Source: Methanobacteriota archaeon
GTDB taxonomy: Archaea; Thermoplasmatota; Thermoplasmata; Methanomassiliicoccales; Methanomassiliicoccaceae
Length of the DNA: 64,000 nt
NCBI GenBank assembly: GCA_012518185.1
Contig: JAAYTA010000105.1
Location: 1-64,000, forward strand
Direction: 5' to 3'
Shown in pieces: positions 57,695-64,000 of this stretch. How positions within the stretch are numbered: the stretch's first letter is position 1; each line of letters begins with the position of its first letter. Under the pieces are notes generated by a model. The model searched no databases. It was not told the origin of the DNA and saw nothing but the letters and a program-made list of their open reading frames with translations. The translations under genes were made by a program, and so were the position numbers.

Positions 57695-58467
57695 TCTGGT
57701 GAGTGTTTAGCTGGCTTTCGATAAAATAAACTTACAAGCGCAGCTGCAAACTTTCCGAGATAGCCACATTGACGCAGGAGAGATATTATCACTCTAGAAT
57801 CAAGTTTGGATTCCCCACATGATCTCTCGCCAAAGTCATATTTCACCTCTGCCACTTCGATTCTTACTGGTGAAAACTTCATCAGATCAAACAGAGCCTT
57901 AAATCCCTGCCTTTCGAACTTTGTATTATTATTGATTACGACATTTTTCCAAACTATTGCATCGCCACCAAAGAATCCACTCATGAGGTCACGGGGTCTA
58001 GTTTTGCGATGTAAAAAAAGATAGGATTGAGCGAGAAAATTAGCTCCCCAAGATGCCAGACGCCGTATCAAACTTAATGCTTCTATGTCGTTACGCGTCC
58101 CCACTGCTATGGCATATCCTGTGGATAACTTCTCCATGATATCGCCAACTTTATCAGGAGGGTGTTGAAAGTCGGCATCCATTATGATGAAATATTTTGT
58201 TTTTGTATTAATTATTCCATCCATTAAGCTAGCAGTCAGACCTCTATCCTCTGGATCTCGGACTATGAGCCTTATTGAGGGATTTTTTAAAGCTAGGTCT
58301 TTCACAAATTCGATCGTACCGTCAATAGAGTTATCATCCACTACAAGTATCTCAATTTCTGGATATAACCTTAGAAGGCTCGCAATCATGTGCTGAATAT
58401 TTTGAACCTCATTATATGTAGGAATAATAATCGTGAAATGAGACATATCCAGCCCAGATCTGGTCAT
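57664..58467 (-). CDS. Dolichol-phosphate mannosyltransferase-like GT2
   Basis: TIIIPTYNEVQNIQHMIASLL...ILVVDDNSIDGTIE...MDADFQHPPDKV. Confidence 0.9.
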   Translation of the reverse strand: MTRSGLDMSHFTIIIPTYNEVQNIQHMIASLLRLYPEIEILVVDDNSIDGTIEFVKDLALKNPSIRLIVRDPEDRGLTASLMDGIINTKTKYFIIMDADFQHPPDKVGDIMEKLSTGYAIAVGTRNDIEALSLIRRLASWGANFLAQSYLFLHRKTRPRDLMSGFFGGDAIVWKNVVINNNTKFERQGFKALFDLMKFSPVRIEVAEVKYDFGERSCGESKLDSRVIISLLRQCGYLGKFAAALVSLFYRKPAKHSPDQEIAATMRP

Positions 58468-58645
58468 ATAATCAAATCCTATTTAACATATTAAAGTGTA
58501 GTCATAGTTAACATCGCACTCATTCCCGCGCCAAGGTCAATCGAAATAGTATCTTCTATACGGTAGCATTGCATATTACTTCTCAATCAAAGGCCTTACA
58601 TCATCAAGAGATATTTTTATGTGTCTAACTTATTGTAGAAACTGA

Positions 58646-59536
58646 ATGATCTCTCTTACAGTGGGTGTCTGTGCTTACAATGAGGAAAAAAATATAGCCG
58701 ATTGCATAGACTCTATCCTGACTCAACGGGCCTCTTCATATAAACTTCTAGATATATTAGTCGTCTGTAGTGGATGTACTGATGGGACCGAGAATATTGT
58801 TAAAGAAATATCGCATAGAGATCATAGAGTTCGCCTATTAATTCAGAAGGAGCGGGAGGGCAAGTGCTCTGCTATCAATCTGATAATCTCTCAGGCAGAA
58901 GGAAATATAGTAGCATTGGTAAATGGTGACAATAGATTAGAGGAAGGAAGTTTAGAACACTTAATGAGACCTTTTAATGATCCATTAGTTGGAATGACTG
59001 GAGGTCATCCTATACCAGTAAATTCCTATGATGAAATGATTGGTTTTGCTGTCCATATGGTGTGGGAACTTCATCACAGACTATCTTTAAATTCTCCAAA
59101 GATTGGAGAATTAGTAGCCTTCCGTAAGGACGGCATCTCGCTACCAACGCATCTAGGCTCGGATGAAGATAATATTCGAATGCAACTGGAACGTAAGGGC
59201 CTTCGCTCAGTATATACTCCTAATGCTACGGTAATAAACAAAGGCCCTACTACAGTAACAGATTTCATGAAGCAACGAACTCGGATAAACATCGGTGAAG
59301 GATATATCAAGAAATTATACGACTATGATATACCTACTCAGGATCGGAGTTTGGTTATTCGTGCCTTGCTTGATTTCTTGCGAAAACATGGAAACCATCC
59401 TTTAAAAATCGCAGCAGCAATCATCTTAGAAGCGTCAGCACGAATGTATGCTAAAGTATACGTAGCTTTAGATAAGGGAGATAAGGCAGTGTGGTGTCCA
59501 ATAGCAACGAGTAAGGATATTGATATGAAAGATTAA
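58646..59536 (+). CDS. Glycosyltransferase family 2
   Basis: LTVGVCAYNEEKNIADCIDSIL...VVCSGCTDGTENIVKEI. Confidence 0.9.
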   Translation: MISLTVGVCAYNEEKNIADCIDSILTQRASSYKLLDILVVCSGCTDGTENIVKEISHRDHRVRLLIQKEREGKCSAINLIISQAEGNIVALVNGDNRLEEGSLEHLMRPFNDPLVGMTGGHPIPVNSYDEMIGFAVHMVWELHHRLSLNSPKIGELVAFRKDGISLPTHLGSDEDNIRMQLERKGLRSVYTPNATVINKGPTTVTDFMKQRTRINIGEGYIKKLYDYDIPTQDRSLVIRALLDFLRKHGNHPLKIAAAIILEASARMYAKVYVALDKGDKAVWCPIATSKDIDMKD

Positions 59537-59771
59537 ACCACGAATATAATACAGTAACTATGGTCTCTAAGACAAAGTCCTTTTATCTAATCAGTTACGA
59601 AACATATTGTATTATCCGATAGTGCCTAACATCCTTAACATTCATTGTTCACATGACTACATATAGATCAATCATTGAGCACAAGAAGATTATGAAGTCA
59701 ATAGCCTGACCGAACATTTTTGTATTGGTTACTCTCAAACAAATTTAATCTAGCATCATCTAAATGGGGGA

Positions 59772-60743
59772 ATGATCACGGGAGATAAGGTCTGGTTTGA
59801 TGGCTCATTAGCTACATCAAAAAGTATCAGTGTATCATTGATGTCGCATGGACTCCATTATGGCGGAGGAGTCTTCGAAGGTATCAGAATATATGATACT
59901 CCTCGAGGAAGAAGCATATTTAGATTGAGAGATCACCTATGCCGTTTCATTGACTCTGCCAAATATTTACGTCTCAATATAGAGTATGATATAGACGATC
60001 TTTATGAGGCAGTTAAATTAGTGGTCAGAGCCAATGGTCCTAATGCTGATTACATTAGGCCCATAGCGTTCTATGGCGAAACGCCCAATTTAAGTATGAA
60101 TCCGCTCAACATACCTAGTCATGTTGCCATAATTACAGTTCATATGGGTTCATACATAGGTAATAGGCAAGTGCAAGATGGAATGGATGTAATAATATCT
60201 TCCTGGGAGAAGTCATCCAATAGGACTACGTCTTCAATGGCCAAAATATGTGGGAATTATATTAATTTAGCATTAGCCAAATTAGAGGCGACTCAGGCTG
60301 GAGTAGATGAAGCCATAATGATCAACTGCAATGGCACGGTAGCAGAAGGGACAGGAGAGAATCTTTTCATAGTTCGCAATGGCAATGTTATAACGCCAGA
60401 TCTGGCCTCGGGCATATTGGAAGGGATTACGCGCGATACCGTGATGCGCTTGGCTAAGGCATCAGATTATATTGTAGAGGAACGGCCAATCATTAGGGGA
60501 GAACTCATGGTGGCAGATGAAATATTTATGACTGGCACTGCGGCTGAGATAGTACCTGTCCGAACAATAAATAATGTACTAGTGGCTGATGGAGCGCCGG
60601 GGCCAGTAACTCGGCACATGCAGAAACTTTTCCATGATGTGGTTAGGGGAAGAGATGCCCGATTTATAGAATGGATAGATCTAATCGATGATAAATCAGC
60701 CGAAATCTCAGATTCTTTAGAGACATTTGAGACCGAAAGCTGA
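59772..60743 (+). CDS. ilvE: Branched-chain amino acid aminotransferase
   Basis: SHGLHYGGGVFEGIRIYDTPRG...KICGNYINLALAKLEATQAGVDEAIMINCNGTVAEGTGENLFIV. Confidence 0.95.
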   Translation: MITGDKVWFDGSLATSKSISVSLMSHGLHYGGGVFEGIRIYDTPRGRSIFRLRDHLCRFIDSAKYLRLNIEYDIDDLYEAVKLVVRANGPNADYIRPIAFYGETPNLSMNPLNIPSHVAIITVHMGSYIGNRQVQDGMDVIISSWEKSSNRTTSSMAKICGNYINLALAKLEATQAGVDEAIMINCNGTVAEGTGENLFIVRNGNVITPDLASGILEGITRDTVMRLAKASDYIVEERPIIRGELMVADEIFMTGTAAEIVPVRTINNVLVADGAPGPVTRHMQKLFHDVVRGRDARFIEWIDLIDDKSAEISDSLETFETES

Positions 60744-60896
60744 TATGACACATTGATATGAGAACGCCTTATTGAGATAGGTAAAAGTAGAAAACAACGT
60801 TATATGGACTTTAATTGAACGTTATAATATTCGAGTAATAATTACCCCGACTCTATGGGTAAAGACTAATAGGAAGTTAAGCAGTCCATCAGCTCA

Positions 60897-61685
60897 ATGT
60901 CTTTCTCTCTCGGCATGCCTGCACTTATAGATATGCCCGATCTTACTGACCTTGTTGACCTGTGTCAGGAACTCGAACTCTCATTTATCGAGCTCAATAT
61001 GAATCTGCCAGAGAATAGCCCTGAAAAGCTAGATCCACTGGAAGTTAGAGACATCTCTAAACGCTACGACATCGAGTTCACATTACATTCGCATGACGAA
61101 CTAGATCTCGGCTCACTGCATCCAACAGTACGCAGAGGTCATTTGGATGCCATAAAAGAAGTGTTAGATTGGTCTGCACAGGCTGATATAAAAGTTCTGA
61201 ATATGCATCTAGGAACAGGAGTATACTTCACACTGCCAAATCGAAAAGTGTGGATATACGAGCAGTATGAGGAACAATTCATCGAGAATCTATGTTCCAC
61301 TCATCGTGACATACTCCCTCTGGCACAGGCCTATGGTGTAGAAATATGCACAGAAAATGTTGTAAATTTTCACATCCCCTTTGTCACTAGAGCTATCAAT
61401 ACATTATGTCGACTTGAAGGATTTAATCTTACATGGGATATTGGACATGATGCTCGATCTGACTTCAAGGAAAGAGAAGTTCTTATGAGACATGAATCGC
61501 GCATAAAGCACATGCATTTACATGACTATAATGGCATAAGTGATCATCAAGTACCTGGTACGGGCACATTAGATATACCAGCCATGCTAGATTTCGCCCA
61601 ATTAAAGAATATAAGAGTACTCGTTGAGACTAAGACACCCTCATCTCTCAGGAAGTCAGTCAAAGCAGTCAAGTCCATGATATGA
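60897..61685 (+). CDS. Sugar phosphate isomerase/epimerase (AP endonuclease 2 TIM barrel)
   Basis: CQELELSFIELNMNLPEN...FTLHSHDELDLG...CTENVVNF...LTWDIGHDARSD...HMHLHDYNG. Confidence 0.85.
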   Translation: MSFSLGMPALIDMPDLTDLVDLCQELELSFIELNMNLPENSPEKLDPLEVRDISKRYDIEFTLHSHDELDLGSLHPTVRRGHLDAIKEVLDWSAQADIKVLNMHLGTGVYFTLPNRKVWIYEQYEEQFIENLCSTHRDILPLAQAYGVEICTENVVNFHIPFVTRAINTLCRLEGFNLTWDIGHDARSDFKEREVLMRHESRIKHMHLHDYNGISDHQVPGTGTLDIPAMLDFAQLKNIRVLVETKTPSSLRKSVKAVKSMI

Positions 61686-61848
61686 TTATAAAGTTCATAT
61701 TTTAGATCTACATATATCACTATGTCTTGATTCATACATTCCCGCAGCATGGAGTAGTAGGACTGGAGTCCAATAGATCAGAGTGCTCTAATGCAGCAGA
61801 TTAACTATAAATAAGACTGTCACTTTGCTTCTCCTGCATTCATATTAA

Positions 61849-61887
61849 ACCGATGAATGATGAGGACACTTATCGTCCGAATGAGGT
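61849..61887 (+). promoter_or_regulatory. Predicted tandem (stacked) double kink-turn in the rpl7ae leader, containing the Shine-Dalgarno
   Basis: ACC-GAU-GA-AU-GAU-GA-GGAC(ACUUAUC)GUCC-GA-AU-GA-GGU: two 3-nt GAU bulges, two tandem G.A steps; SD gaggt 61883-61887, ATG 61895; TATAAATA at 61806-61813. Confidence 0.75.
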
Positions 61888-61894
61888 AATAATT

Positions 61895-62266
61895 ATGTCA
61901 AAGGCAATGTTCGTCCGTTTCGAAATGCCCAAGGAGCTCTCTGATAAAGCCTACGAGATCGTTGAGGCTGCTAGAGATACTGGCAAGGTGCGCAAGGGGA
62001 CAAATGAAGTAACCAAGCTCGTGGAGAGGAGCGAGGCCGTATTAGTGATAATGGCTGAAGATGTTCAGCCTCCAGAAATATTAGCTCATGTACCCCTACT
62101 GTGTGAGGAGCGCAACATACTATATGCTTATGTCCCATCTAAGGCGGAACTAGGACACGCTGTCGGTATGGAAAAACCTGCCGCCTCGGTTGCCGTTCTC
62201 GATGCTGGTAAGGCCAAGCCCATGATCGAGAGCTTTACTGAACAAATTAAGAAGCTAAGGCAGTAA
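61895..62266 (+). CDS. rpl7ae: Ribosomal protein L7Ae
   Basis: MSKAMFVRFEMPKELSDKAYEIVEAARDTGKVRKGTNEVTKLVERSEAVLVIMAEDVQPPEILAHVPLLCEE. Confidence 0.96.
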   Translation: MSKAMFVRFEMPKELSDKAYEIVEAARDTGKVRKGTNEVTKLVERSEAVLVIMAEDVQPPEILAHVPLLCEERNILYAYVPSKAELGHAVGMEKPAASVAVLDAGKAKPMIESFTEQIKKLRQ

Positions 62267-62278
62267 GCGAGGGATATC

Positions 62279-62491
62279 ATGGTTGATGGAGACAGCATTC
62301 CATCCGAAGTGGTGGAGATTATAGGCCGTACCGGTATGACTGGTGAGGCCACCCAAGTCAAAGTGCGTGTGCTTGATGGCCGCGATAAAGGCCGCATCAT
62401 CACTCGCAATATCATGGGACCCGTTAGAATGGGAGATATACTGATGCTCCGCGAGACCTCTAGAGAGGCCCGTAAGCTATCGATTAGGTGA
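62279..62491 (+). CDS. rps28e: Ribosomal protein S28e
   Basis: [60 protein letters not shown]. Confidence 0.96.
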
Positions 62492-62496
62492 TATAT

Positions 62497-62823
62497 ATGG
62501 CCGAGAGACGCGTGTGTTCGTTCTGCGGTGAGGATGTAGAGCCAGGCACTGGTAAAATATATGTTAAGAGAGATGGCACTATTTTGATCTTTGATTCTAG
62601 TAAGTGCTACAAGAATATGATTGGTCTCGGCAGGATACCTAGGAGAACCAGGTGGACTAAGTCTGCTAGCGCTCTAAAGGCCTCTCTTAAGGCAGCTGGT
62701 ACTAAAGATACTAGAGTAGAGATCCCAGCAGTTCCTACTAGGACCAAAGCCACTACCAGGCGGTCTCGAAGGGTGAGAACTAAGGCTGAGGCTCCGGTAG
62801 AATCAGATGAAAATAATGAGTGA
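62497..62823 (+). CDS. rpl24e: Ribosomal protein L24e with C-terminal extension
   Basis: [48 protein letters not shown]; ~45-aa basic/acidic tail. Confidence 0.93.
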
Positions 62824-62827
62824 TAAT

Positions 62828-63280
62828 ATGGCTGAGCGCACCTTCTTAATGCTTAAGCCTGATGCAATTCAGCGTGGACTAATGAGCGAGATACTTGCCC
62901 GCATCGAAGCCAAAGGTTATAAGCCAATTGGCATGAAGTTCATGCGACTACCTAGGGAACTTGCTGAGCGTCACTATGGCGAACATAAGGACAAACCGTT
63001 CTTCCCTGGACTCATTGAATACATTACATCTGGACCATCTTTAGTAATGGTATGGGAAGGAGAAAATATCATTGCTGGAATGAGAGCACTGATGGGCAAG
63101 ACAAATCCTTCTGAGGCTGCACCAGGTACTATTAGAGGAGATCTAGCTCAACATACGGGCAGAAATTTAATACATGGATCCGACTCTCCAGAATCGGCGA
63201 AGAGAGAAATTGATCTCTTCTTCAATGATTATGAGCTACAGAGTTGGGATCGATCTGTAGAGACTTGGCTAATAGAATGA
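62828..63280 (+). CDS. ndk: Nucleoside diphosphate kinase
   Basis: [25 protein letters not shown]...[26 protein letters not shown]. Confidence 0.96.
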
Positions 63281-63287
63281 ATTACTT

Positions 63288-63310
63288 AGGAGCTCCAACT
63301 CCTCTTTTTT
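63288..63310 (+). terminator. Hairpin plus T6 tract after ndk
   Basis: aggag-ctccaa-ctcct-ctttttt. Confidence 0.55.
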
Positions 63311-63517
63311 ATTATATATCTAAAATCATTTCTTATCATTTATATAAAATATAATCTCTATTATCTTTTAAGATTAGAAAACATTAGATGTTAGTATTCC
63401 ACGTTCCGTGAGCTATGTGTGAAGAATATCAAACAATGTCAAAAATCCATATATCTGATCATGATAGCATGTTAGCTATGGCAAATCAATTAATATATGT
63501 CCCTTCATCGCTCCAAT

Positions 63518-64000
63518 ATGGCCACCCGACAGCCAATCGTAAGTGTCCTTGGTCATGTTGACCATGGTAAAACCTCCCTGCTCGATCGCATTAGAGGTAC
63601 CTCAGTCACCAAGCGAGAGGCTGGCCTAATCACTCAGCACATAGGTGCTACCGAAGTGCCTATTGATCATATCTATCGAGTCACTAAGCCTCTAACAGGA
63701 GATAATCGCAAATTCACAGTTCCCGGCTTATTGTTCATTGACACTCCAGGACATCAGTCGTTCACATCATTACGTGCTCGAGGAGGTGCTCTGGCCGATC
63801 TTGCTGTATTAGTGATCGATGTAAGTGAAGGCCTGAAACCACAGACTCTAGAATCCATTCAACTTCTAAAGCGTTTCAAAACTCCATTTATTATCGCCAT
63901 GAATAAGATCGATCTTATAGATGGCTGGCAGACTAAGGAAGGCGCACCTTTCATACTAAATTACAATGCGCAGACAGAACAGACGAAGGCCAAGCTAGAT
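63518..64000 (+). CDS. infB: Translation initiation factor aIF5B/IF-2 (partial, runs off right edge)
   Basis: MATRQPIVSVLGHVDHGKTSLLDRIRGTSVTKREAGLITQHIGATEVP...FIDTPGHQSFTSLRARGG...AMNKIDLI; not in ORF track because open at the window end. Confidence 0.95.
   Translation, partial: MATRQPIVSVLGHVDHGKTSLLDRIRGTSVTKREAGLITQHIGATEVPIDHIYRVTKPLTGDNRKFTVPGLLFIDTPGHQSFTSLRARGGALADLAVLVIDVSEGLKPQTLESIQLLKRFKTPFIIAMNKIDLIDGWQTKEGAPFILNYNAQTEQTKAKLD

Follow-up and report, generated by a model that had tools for sequence, protein, structure and literature searches.

The leader of rpl7ae, the gene for eL8/L7Ae, in a 64,000-nucleotide stretch of Methanomassiliicoccales DNA (hereafter the window, meaning the whole stretch that was analysed) raises the question of whether an mRNA leader can carry two kink-turns (k-turns) for the protein that it encodes, and what the second one might do. 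An earlier note, made from the sequence alone, had read positions 61849-61887 as two stacked k-turns that include the Shine-Dalgarno sequence, and had proposed that they form an L7Ae autoregulatory switch. We compared this element with its counterparts in related genomes and weighed the proposal against other readings of the same conservation.

The rpl7ae gene and its promoter

The reading frame behind the element encodes a protein that scored 154.3 bits against TIGR03677 (cut-off 134.6) and matched L7Ae structures with E-values down to 3e-43. The genome contains one match to this gene, and the closest named relatives of the product are Methanomassiliicoccales proteins with 98% identity. When aligned to solved L7Ae, KGTNEVTKLVER in the product shows N-E-x-x-K-x-x-x-R, spaced as are the residues that contact the k-turn (N33, E34, K37 and R41 in A. 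fulgidus numbering; PMC6298567). The features of the locus, with strand, are:

61806-61813, + strand: TATA box TATAAATA of the rpl7ae promoter, by direct reading
61836, + strand: predicted transcription start (G), placed by TATA spacing
61895-62266, + strand: rpl7ae (eL8/L7Ae), 123 amino acids
62279-63280, + strand: rps28e, rpl24e and ndk, closely spaced behind rpl7ae

The earlier note had reported the box at 61806-61813 and a leader of about 60 nt. The box was confirmed, and TATA spacing predicts a leader of about 59 nt starting at 61836. A TATA-like box was also found upstream in 10 sampled relatives, mostly about 26-31 nt before the GCTC or CATTC segment described below. The three genes behind rpl7ae are probably on the same transcript. 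The gene upstream of rpl7ae (60897-61685) shows a weak likeness to CbiR, a cobamide-remodelling phosphodiesterase (62.3 bits, curated cut-off 105).

Architecture of the leader element

Positions 61849-61887 can be folded into two standard k-turn cores, head to tail, with both bulges on the 5′ strand, and the sequence, coordinates and pairing described previously agree with ours base for base. GA 61855-61856 lies opposite GA 61883-61884 in the outer k-turn, and GA 61862-61863 lies opposite GA 61879-61880 in the inner one. The components are listed here with their conservation in a comparison set of 70 distinct hairpins, drawn from 95 loci:

61849-61851, + strand: outer C-helix, 5′ strand ACC; CC invariant (70/70)
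61852-61854, + strand: outer 3-nt bulge GAU; UGU, CGU, CAU or AAU in relatives, with L3 always U
61855-61856, + strand: outer GA step, b strand; invariant (70/70)
61857-61858, + strand: spacer between the k-turns; A61857 is the variable outer 3b, and U61858, the partner of A61881, is invariant
61859-61861, + strand: inner 3-nt bulge GAU; AAU, CAU, CGU or UGU in relatives
61862-61863, + strand: inner GA step, b strand; invariant (70/70)
61864-61878, + strand: inner NC stem GGAC/GUCC (61864-61867/61875-61878) with a 7-nt loop (61868-61874); covaries in relatives
61879-61880, + strand: inner GA step, n strand; 69/70
61881-61882, + strand: spacer, 3′ strand; A invariant, then U here and G or A in most other families
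61883-61887, + strand: outer GA step, n strand, and outer C-helix, 3′ strand (GGT 61885-61887), together the Shine-Dalgarno sequence GAGGU; invariant (70/70)

GAGGU ends the element 7 nt ahead of the rpl7ae ATG at 61895, and because it is the 3′ strand of the outer k-turn, the Shine-Dalgarno sequence does lie inside that k-turn, as had been claimed. The two-base-pair AU/AU helix that had been described between the bulges is present in the query but is a typical feature of no family except the query's own. At the corresponding outer 3b:3n position (61857/61882), other families have A.G (26), A.A (13), C-G (8), U.G (4), U-A (3) or G.G (1).

Occurrence in the window and the genome

A structural descriptor of the tandem element, composed after the site had been seen, matched once on the two strands of the window, at 61849, and simulation gave 0.017 matches per 64-kb strand. 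A looser conserved sequence pattern had five matches in the 1.6-Mb genome, of which the rpl7ae copy is the one with a good fit to the covariance model. The covariance model R2, which was built from 54 hairpins with the query's own family left out, scored 37.9 bits at 61849-61887 (E = 7e-11 for the window and 1.8e-9 for the genome), and the rpl7ae element was its only significant match in the genome. The next R2 match (18.6 bits, E = 0.018) lies within an open reading frame and was rejected as chance. Nearest-neighbour folding of the single sequence was unremarkable (z = -0.86); minimum-energy folding of this kind is uninformative here because sheared G.A pairs are not modelled. Rfam 15 gave no relevant match in positions 58000-64000 of the window, where one unrelated hit fell below threshold, nor in 12 related loci. 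Reading the RNase P RNA region of this genome for a tandem k-turn revealed nothing clear.

Conservation and covariation in relatives

By sequence comparison, the tandem element is real and strongly conserved. It precedes rpl7ae in all 61 genomes of the order in which leaders were read. The model R1 matched 137 of 148 genomes of the order. Among them are 74 of the 75 high-quality genomes, each of the 30 genera is represented, and a genome nearly always has a single copy. Six genomes without an R1 match were checked: five had no detectable rpl7ae, and in the sixth a contig ended in the middle of the motif. Matches were obtained in 175 of 350 genomes of the class and in 82 of 297 in a sample of the phylum, the weakest of these matches being doubtful. 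One match (L188, G310:C3; 7.8e-6), with ACCGATGAATGATGA, lies ahead of another reading frame and not of rpl7ae; it may be a chance match or a second target.

All 70 hairpins share three of the four GA steps, the L3 uridine of each bulge and the U-A pair 61858-61881; the fourth GA step occurs in 69. This invariance arises partly by construction, since the search pattern fixed those letters and most of the GA steps, but a looser scan that fixed the GA steps and left bulge and spacer letters free recovered the same L3 and U-A letters. The bulge letters take five forms in each bulge. In the inner stem the 4b:4n pair is G-C in 69 of 70 hairpins, and the pairs beyond it covary, with 123 double-changed cells versus 46.8 after shuffling; when the partners were slid, the signal dropped to 1-31. 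The result was the same with the query's own family left out. The query itself has C61867-G61875 where the rest of its genus has U-A. Members of the own family show 99.6-100% identity in the arms, as against 63% over the 60 bases upstream. As checks, the earlier note had named the GA/bulge pattern in related leaders, where it is indeed kept, and covariation in both helices around invariant GA steps. Covariation was found in the inner stem, and the GA steps are invariant or nearly so, but the outer C-helix CC/GG never varies and is therefore without covariation support.

These data bear on two simpler readings. One is that only Shine-Dalgarno and promoter sequence are conserved and that the hairpin is incidental. 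The invariant outer C-helix agrees with it, inasmuch as GAGGU is the Shine-Dalgarno sequence and this 3′ strand would be kept for that purpose anyway. However, the 5′ strand CC-NNU-GA-NU-NNU-GA, which precedes the Shine-Dalgarno sequence by some 20 bases or more, is equally constant, and the covariation of the inner stem, which vanishes on sliding the partners, contradicts an incidental hairpin. We regard this reading as very unlikely. The other takes the segment for coding sequence or for an upstream reading frame that is conserved, given that ATG 61853 is in frame with rpl7ae and the frame from it is open into rpl7ae in the window. An open in-frame upstream ATG occurs in only 17 of 70 leaders, however, so 61853 is not a general start and the original reading of the segment as leader stands. 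ATG positions move while the L3 and GA letters are fixed, bulge variants such as CCTGTGA drop the ATG and keep the GA, and loop lengths shift the frame. A coding role is thus extremely improbable.

Variants of the second k-turn

The tandem element recurs in other Thermoplasmatota, where the second k-turn takes more than one form. In family f13 of the class, the outer k-turn is as in the query and the inner one is inverted, so that the 3′ strand carries the bulge. The form ACC-CGU-GA-GCC-GA-stem-GCU-GA-CGC-GA-GGN describes 9 of 12 loci. The leaders with the inverted inner k-turn are L172-L176, L194-L197, L212 and L213, and L174 reads GCC-CGU-GA-GCC-GA-GGGACGC..GCGUCCC-UUU-GA-CGC-GA-GGU. The outer k-turn alone was read in DHVE2 (L102-L107), in Hermodarchaeota (L116, L119, L120) and in L096, L098, L162 and L165. 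Among the DHVE2 and Hermodarchaeota leaders, L123, L127 and L141 also apparently have only the outer k-turn, which covers the Shine-Dalgarno sequence. The f29 leaders that were read (L202-L210) have neither k-turn and just a Shine-Dalgarno sequence, mostly GTGAAGGAGG or similar, and the switch seems to have been lost there. In two Asgard leaders (L125, L131) an inner-type k-turn (AUGAUGAGGGC..GCC(C/U)GAAGGAGG) accompanies a degenerate outer one. Because the second k-turn is inverted in f13, several lineages have the outer one only and f29 has neither, the distribution suggests that the outer k-turn is old and the second one lineage-specific.

The same distribution makes it conceivable that only the outer k-turn regulates, and that the inner one, by lengthening the stem, stabilises the hairpin without binding a second L7Ae. 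The Shine-Dalgarno sequence sits in the outer k-turn, and DHVE2, Hermodarchaeota and L096, L098, L162 and L165 keep the outer pattern when the inner bulge or GA is gone. Yet in the order and outside it, bulge length, L3 uridine and GA steps show the same constancy in the inner k-turn as in the outer one, while bulge letters and stem change; a plain stem would not need this constancy, which therefore argues against the outer-only reading. So does the retention in f13 of a second k-turn in the opposite orientation. We consider the outer-only reading a sizeable possibility, though not the one that we would choose.

Predicted protein dependence of folding and possible pairing with the 5′ segment

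A Watson-Crick pair at 3b:3n predicts that a k-turn does not fold in metal ions alone (PMC4382518). Both k-turns have such a pair in all 14 own-family hairpins tallied, and by this rule they are therefore predicted to need protein for folding. In 16 of the 70 hairpins, 3b:3n of both k-turns permits ion-induced folding, so protein dependence may differ among families. Ion folding is also favoured when -1b:-1n is C:G (PMC6298567); the outer k-turn of the query has C:G at this position, which argues against strict protein dependence. In a folding calculation that ignored G.A pairs and the k-turn's own stability, the outer C-helix had a probability of about 0.06 without protein.

A segment ahead of the element could compete for the k-turn strand:

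61837-61843, + strand: 5′ segment CATTCAT, complementary to ATGAATG at 61853-61859 in the k-turn strand; the own family retains its core, CATTC

We propose this segment as a candidate strand of a competitor helix in the ON state. Many relatives (L016-L061 and L073-L093) instead have a small hairpin, GCUC-loop-GAGC (P1), about 10-20 bases ahead of the element, where the transcript is predicted to begin. The last C of its GAGC doubles as the first one of the k-turn C-helix. In the own family, CATTC takes the place of this hairpin. Of 56 leaders from outside the own family, 53 have the P1 complementarity, versus 16 expected. Since the P1 pairs hardly vary, this is conserved complementarity and not covariation.

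A proposed L7Ae-sensing OFF switch

With the GA/bulge pattern kept, the inner stem covarying and the gene identified as that of eL8/L7Ae, the prediction of an L7Ae autoregulatory switch has gained weight. On these comparisons, the leader element is very probably a cis-acting, L7Ae-sensing translational OFF switch. In the proposed mechanism, the outer closing helix would hardly form when free L7Ae is absent, the 5′ segment could pair with the k-turn strand, and the Shine-Dalgarno sequence would stay open. Once L7Ae exceeds its sites in rRNA, box C/D RNA and RNase P, it would bind its own leader. The bound protein would fold the k-turns and close CC/GG over the Shine-Dalgarno sequence GAGGU. This would halt the translation of rpl7ae and perhaps also that of the downstream genes.

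How many L7Ae molecules take part is a separate matter. We put the chance that two occupy both k-turns at once no better than about one in three. Accordingly tentative, and in our view rather unlikely, is a two-site sensor in which two L7Ae share the two-pair spacer and closure occurs over a narrow range of free L7Ae; here the second site would have persisted during the evolution of Thermoplasmatota in two geometries, the same-strand tandem and the inverted f13 form, with competing 5′ hairpins as the ON state. The k-turns could also be mutually exclusive single sites that hold one L7Ae at a time and provide redundancy or higher apparent affinity rather than cooperativity. Just two GA pairs and two more pairs separate the bulges, which may crowd two L7Ae, and the loops of the crystallised two-k-turn unit are ten base pairs apart (PMC5058347). 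Against this may be set the double k-turn of RNase P RNA (Lai et al., here through a citation). We hold one-at-a-time binding, too, to be doubtful. The OFF switch itself is the reading that we carry into the comparison below.

Comparison with known systems

An L7Ae OFF switch is known from archaeal l7ae leaders, where L7Ae stabilises a hairpin that hides the ribosome site (Daume 2017, PMC5539422; Huang, Ashraf and Lilley 2019, PMC6298567). The published leader k-turns resemble the query in gene, place, overlap with the Shine-Dalgarno sequence and a GAU bulge followed by G.A and A.G. A further likeness would be failure to fold without protein, which the 3b:3n rule predicts for the query's own family and the outer -1b:-1n pair speaks against. 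They differ in that the six leaders drawn in Huang 2019 (PMC6298567) have one k-turn each, whereas the query has two, head to tail, and this arrangement is order-wide; the outer -1b:-1n C:G of the query occurs in none of the six. In the main text of Daume et al. (PMC5539422), high leader conservation is reported for Sulfolobales only.

In the main text of open-licence papers, l7ae leader k-turns are described as single and the two-k-turn form was not found, although an earlier description is possible; nor did open-licence papers include one that joins L7Ae, kink-turn, leader and Thermoplasmata. As far as could be found, the two-k-turn form of the known switch is new. Where single, poorly conserved l7ae leader k-turns had been predicted, there is now an RNA family whose clear consensus holds across an order and further afield, and in it the role of the second k-turn is directly testable. 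Should two L7Ae indeed bind across a two-pair spacer, the leader would stand out among natural protein-sensing switches for its compactness. Synthetic biology, which already employs L7Ae/k-turn pairs, would then gain a useful part.

Paired k-turns have been described in other settings. Euryarchaeal RNase P RNA contains a double kink-turn module (Lai et al. 2017, cited in PMC6565675), which, as far as that citation tells, resembles the query in that two k-turns, for which L7Ae is the likely ligand, sit close to each other in a single archaeal RNA; it is an element of a structural RNA and not of an mRNA leader. A designed, crystallised RNA (Huang and Lilley 2016, PMC5058347) has two k-turns in one duplex with L7Ae on each. 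Its unit is head-to-head, joined through the NC helices, and in this it resembles the inverted f13 form; it is artificial, and its loops lie ten base pairs apart, one on each strand, whereas the query is head-to-tail with its loops on one strand. In the yeast L30e pre-mRNA and mRNA, an L7Ae-family protein likewise exerts feedback on its own transcript through a k-turn (PMC6298567), but that system is eukaryotic, has one k-turn structure and also affects splicing.
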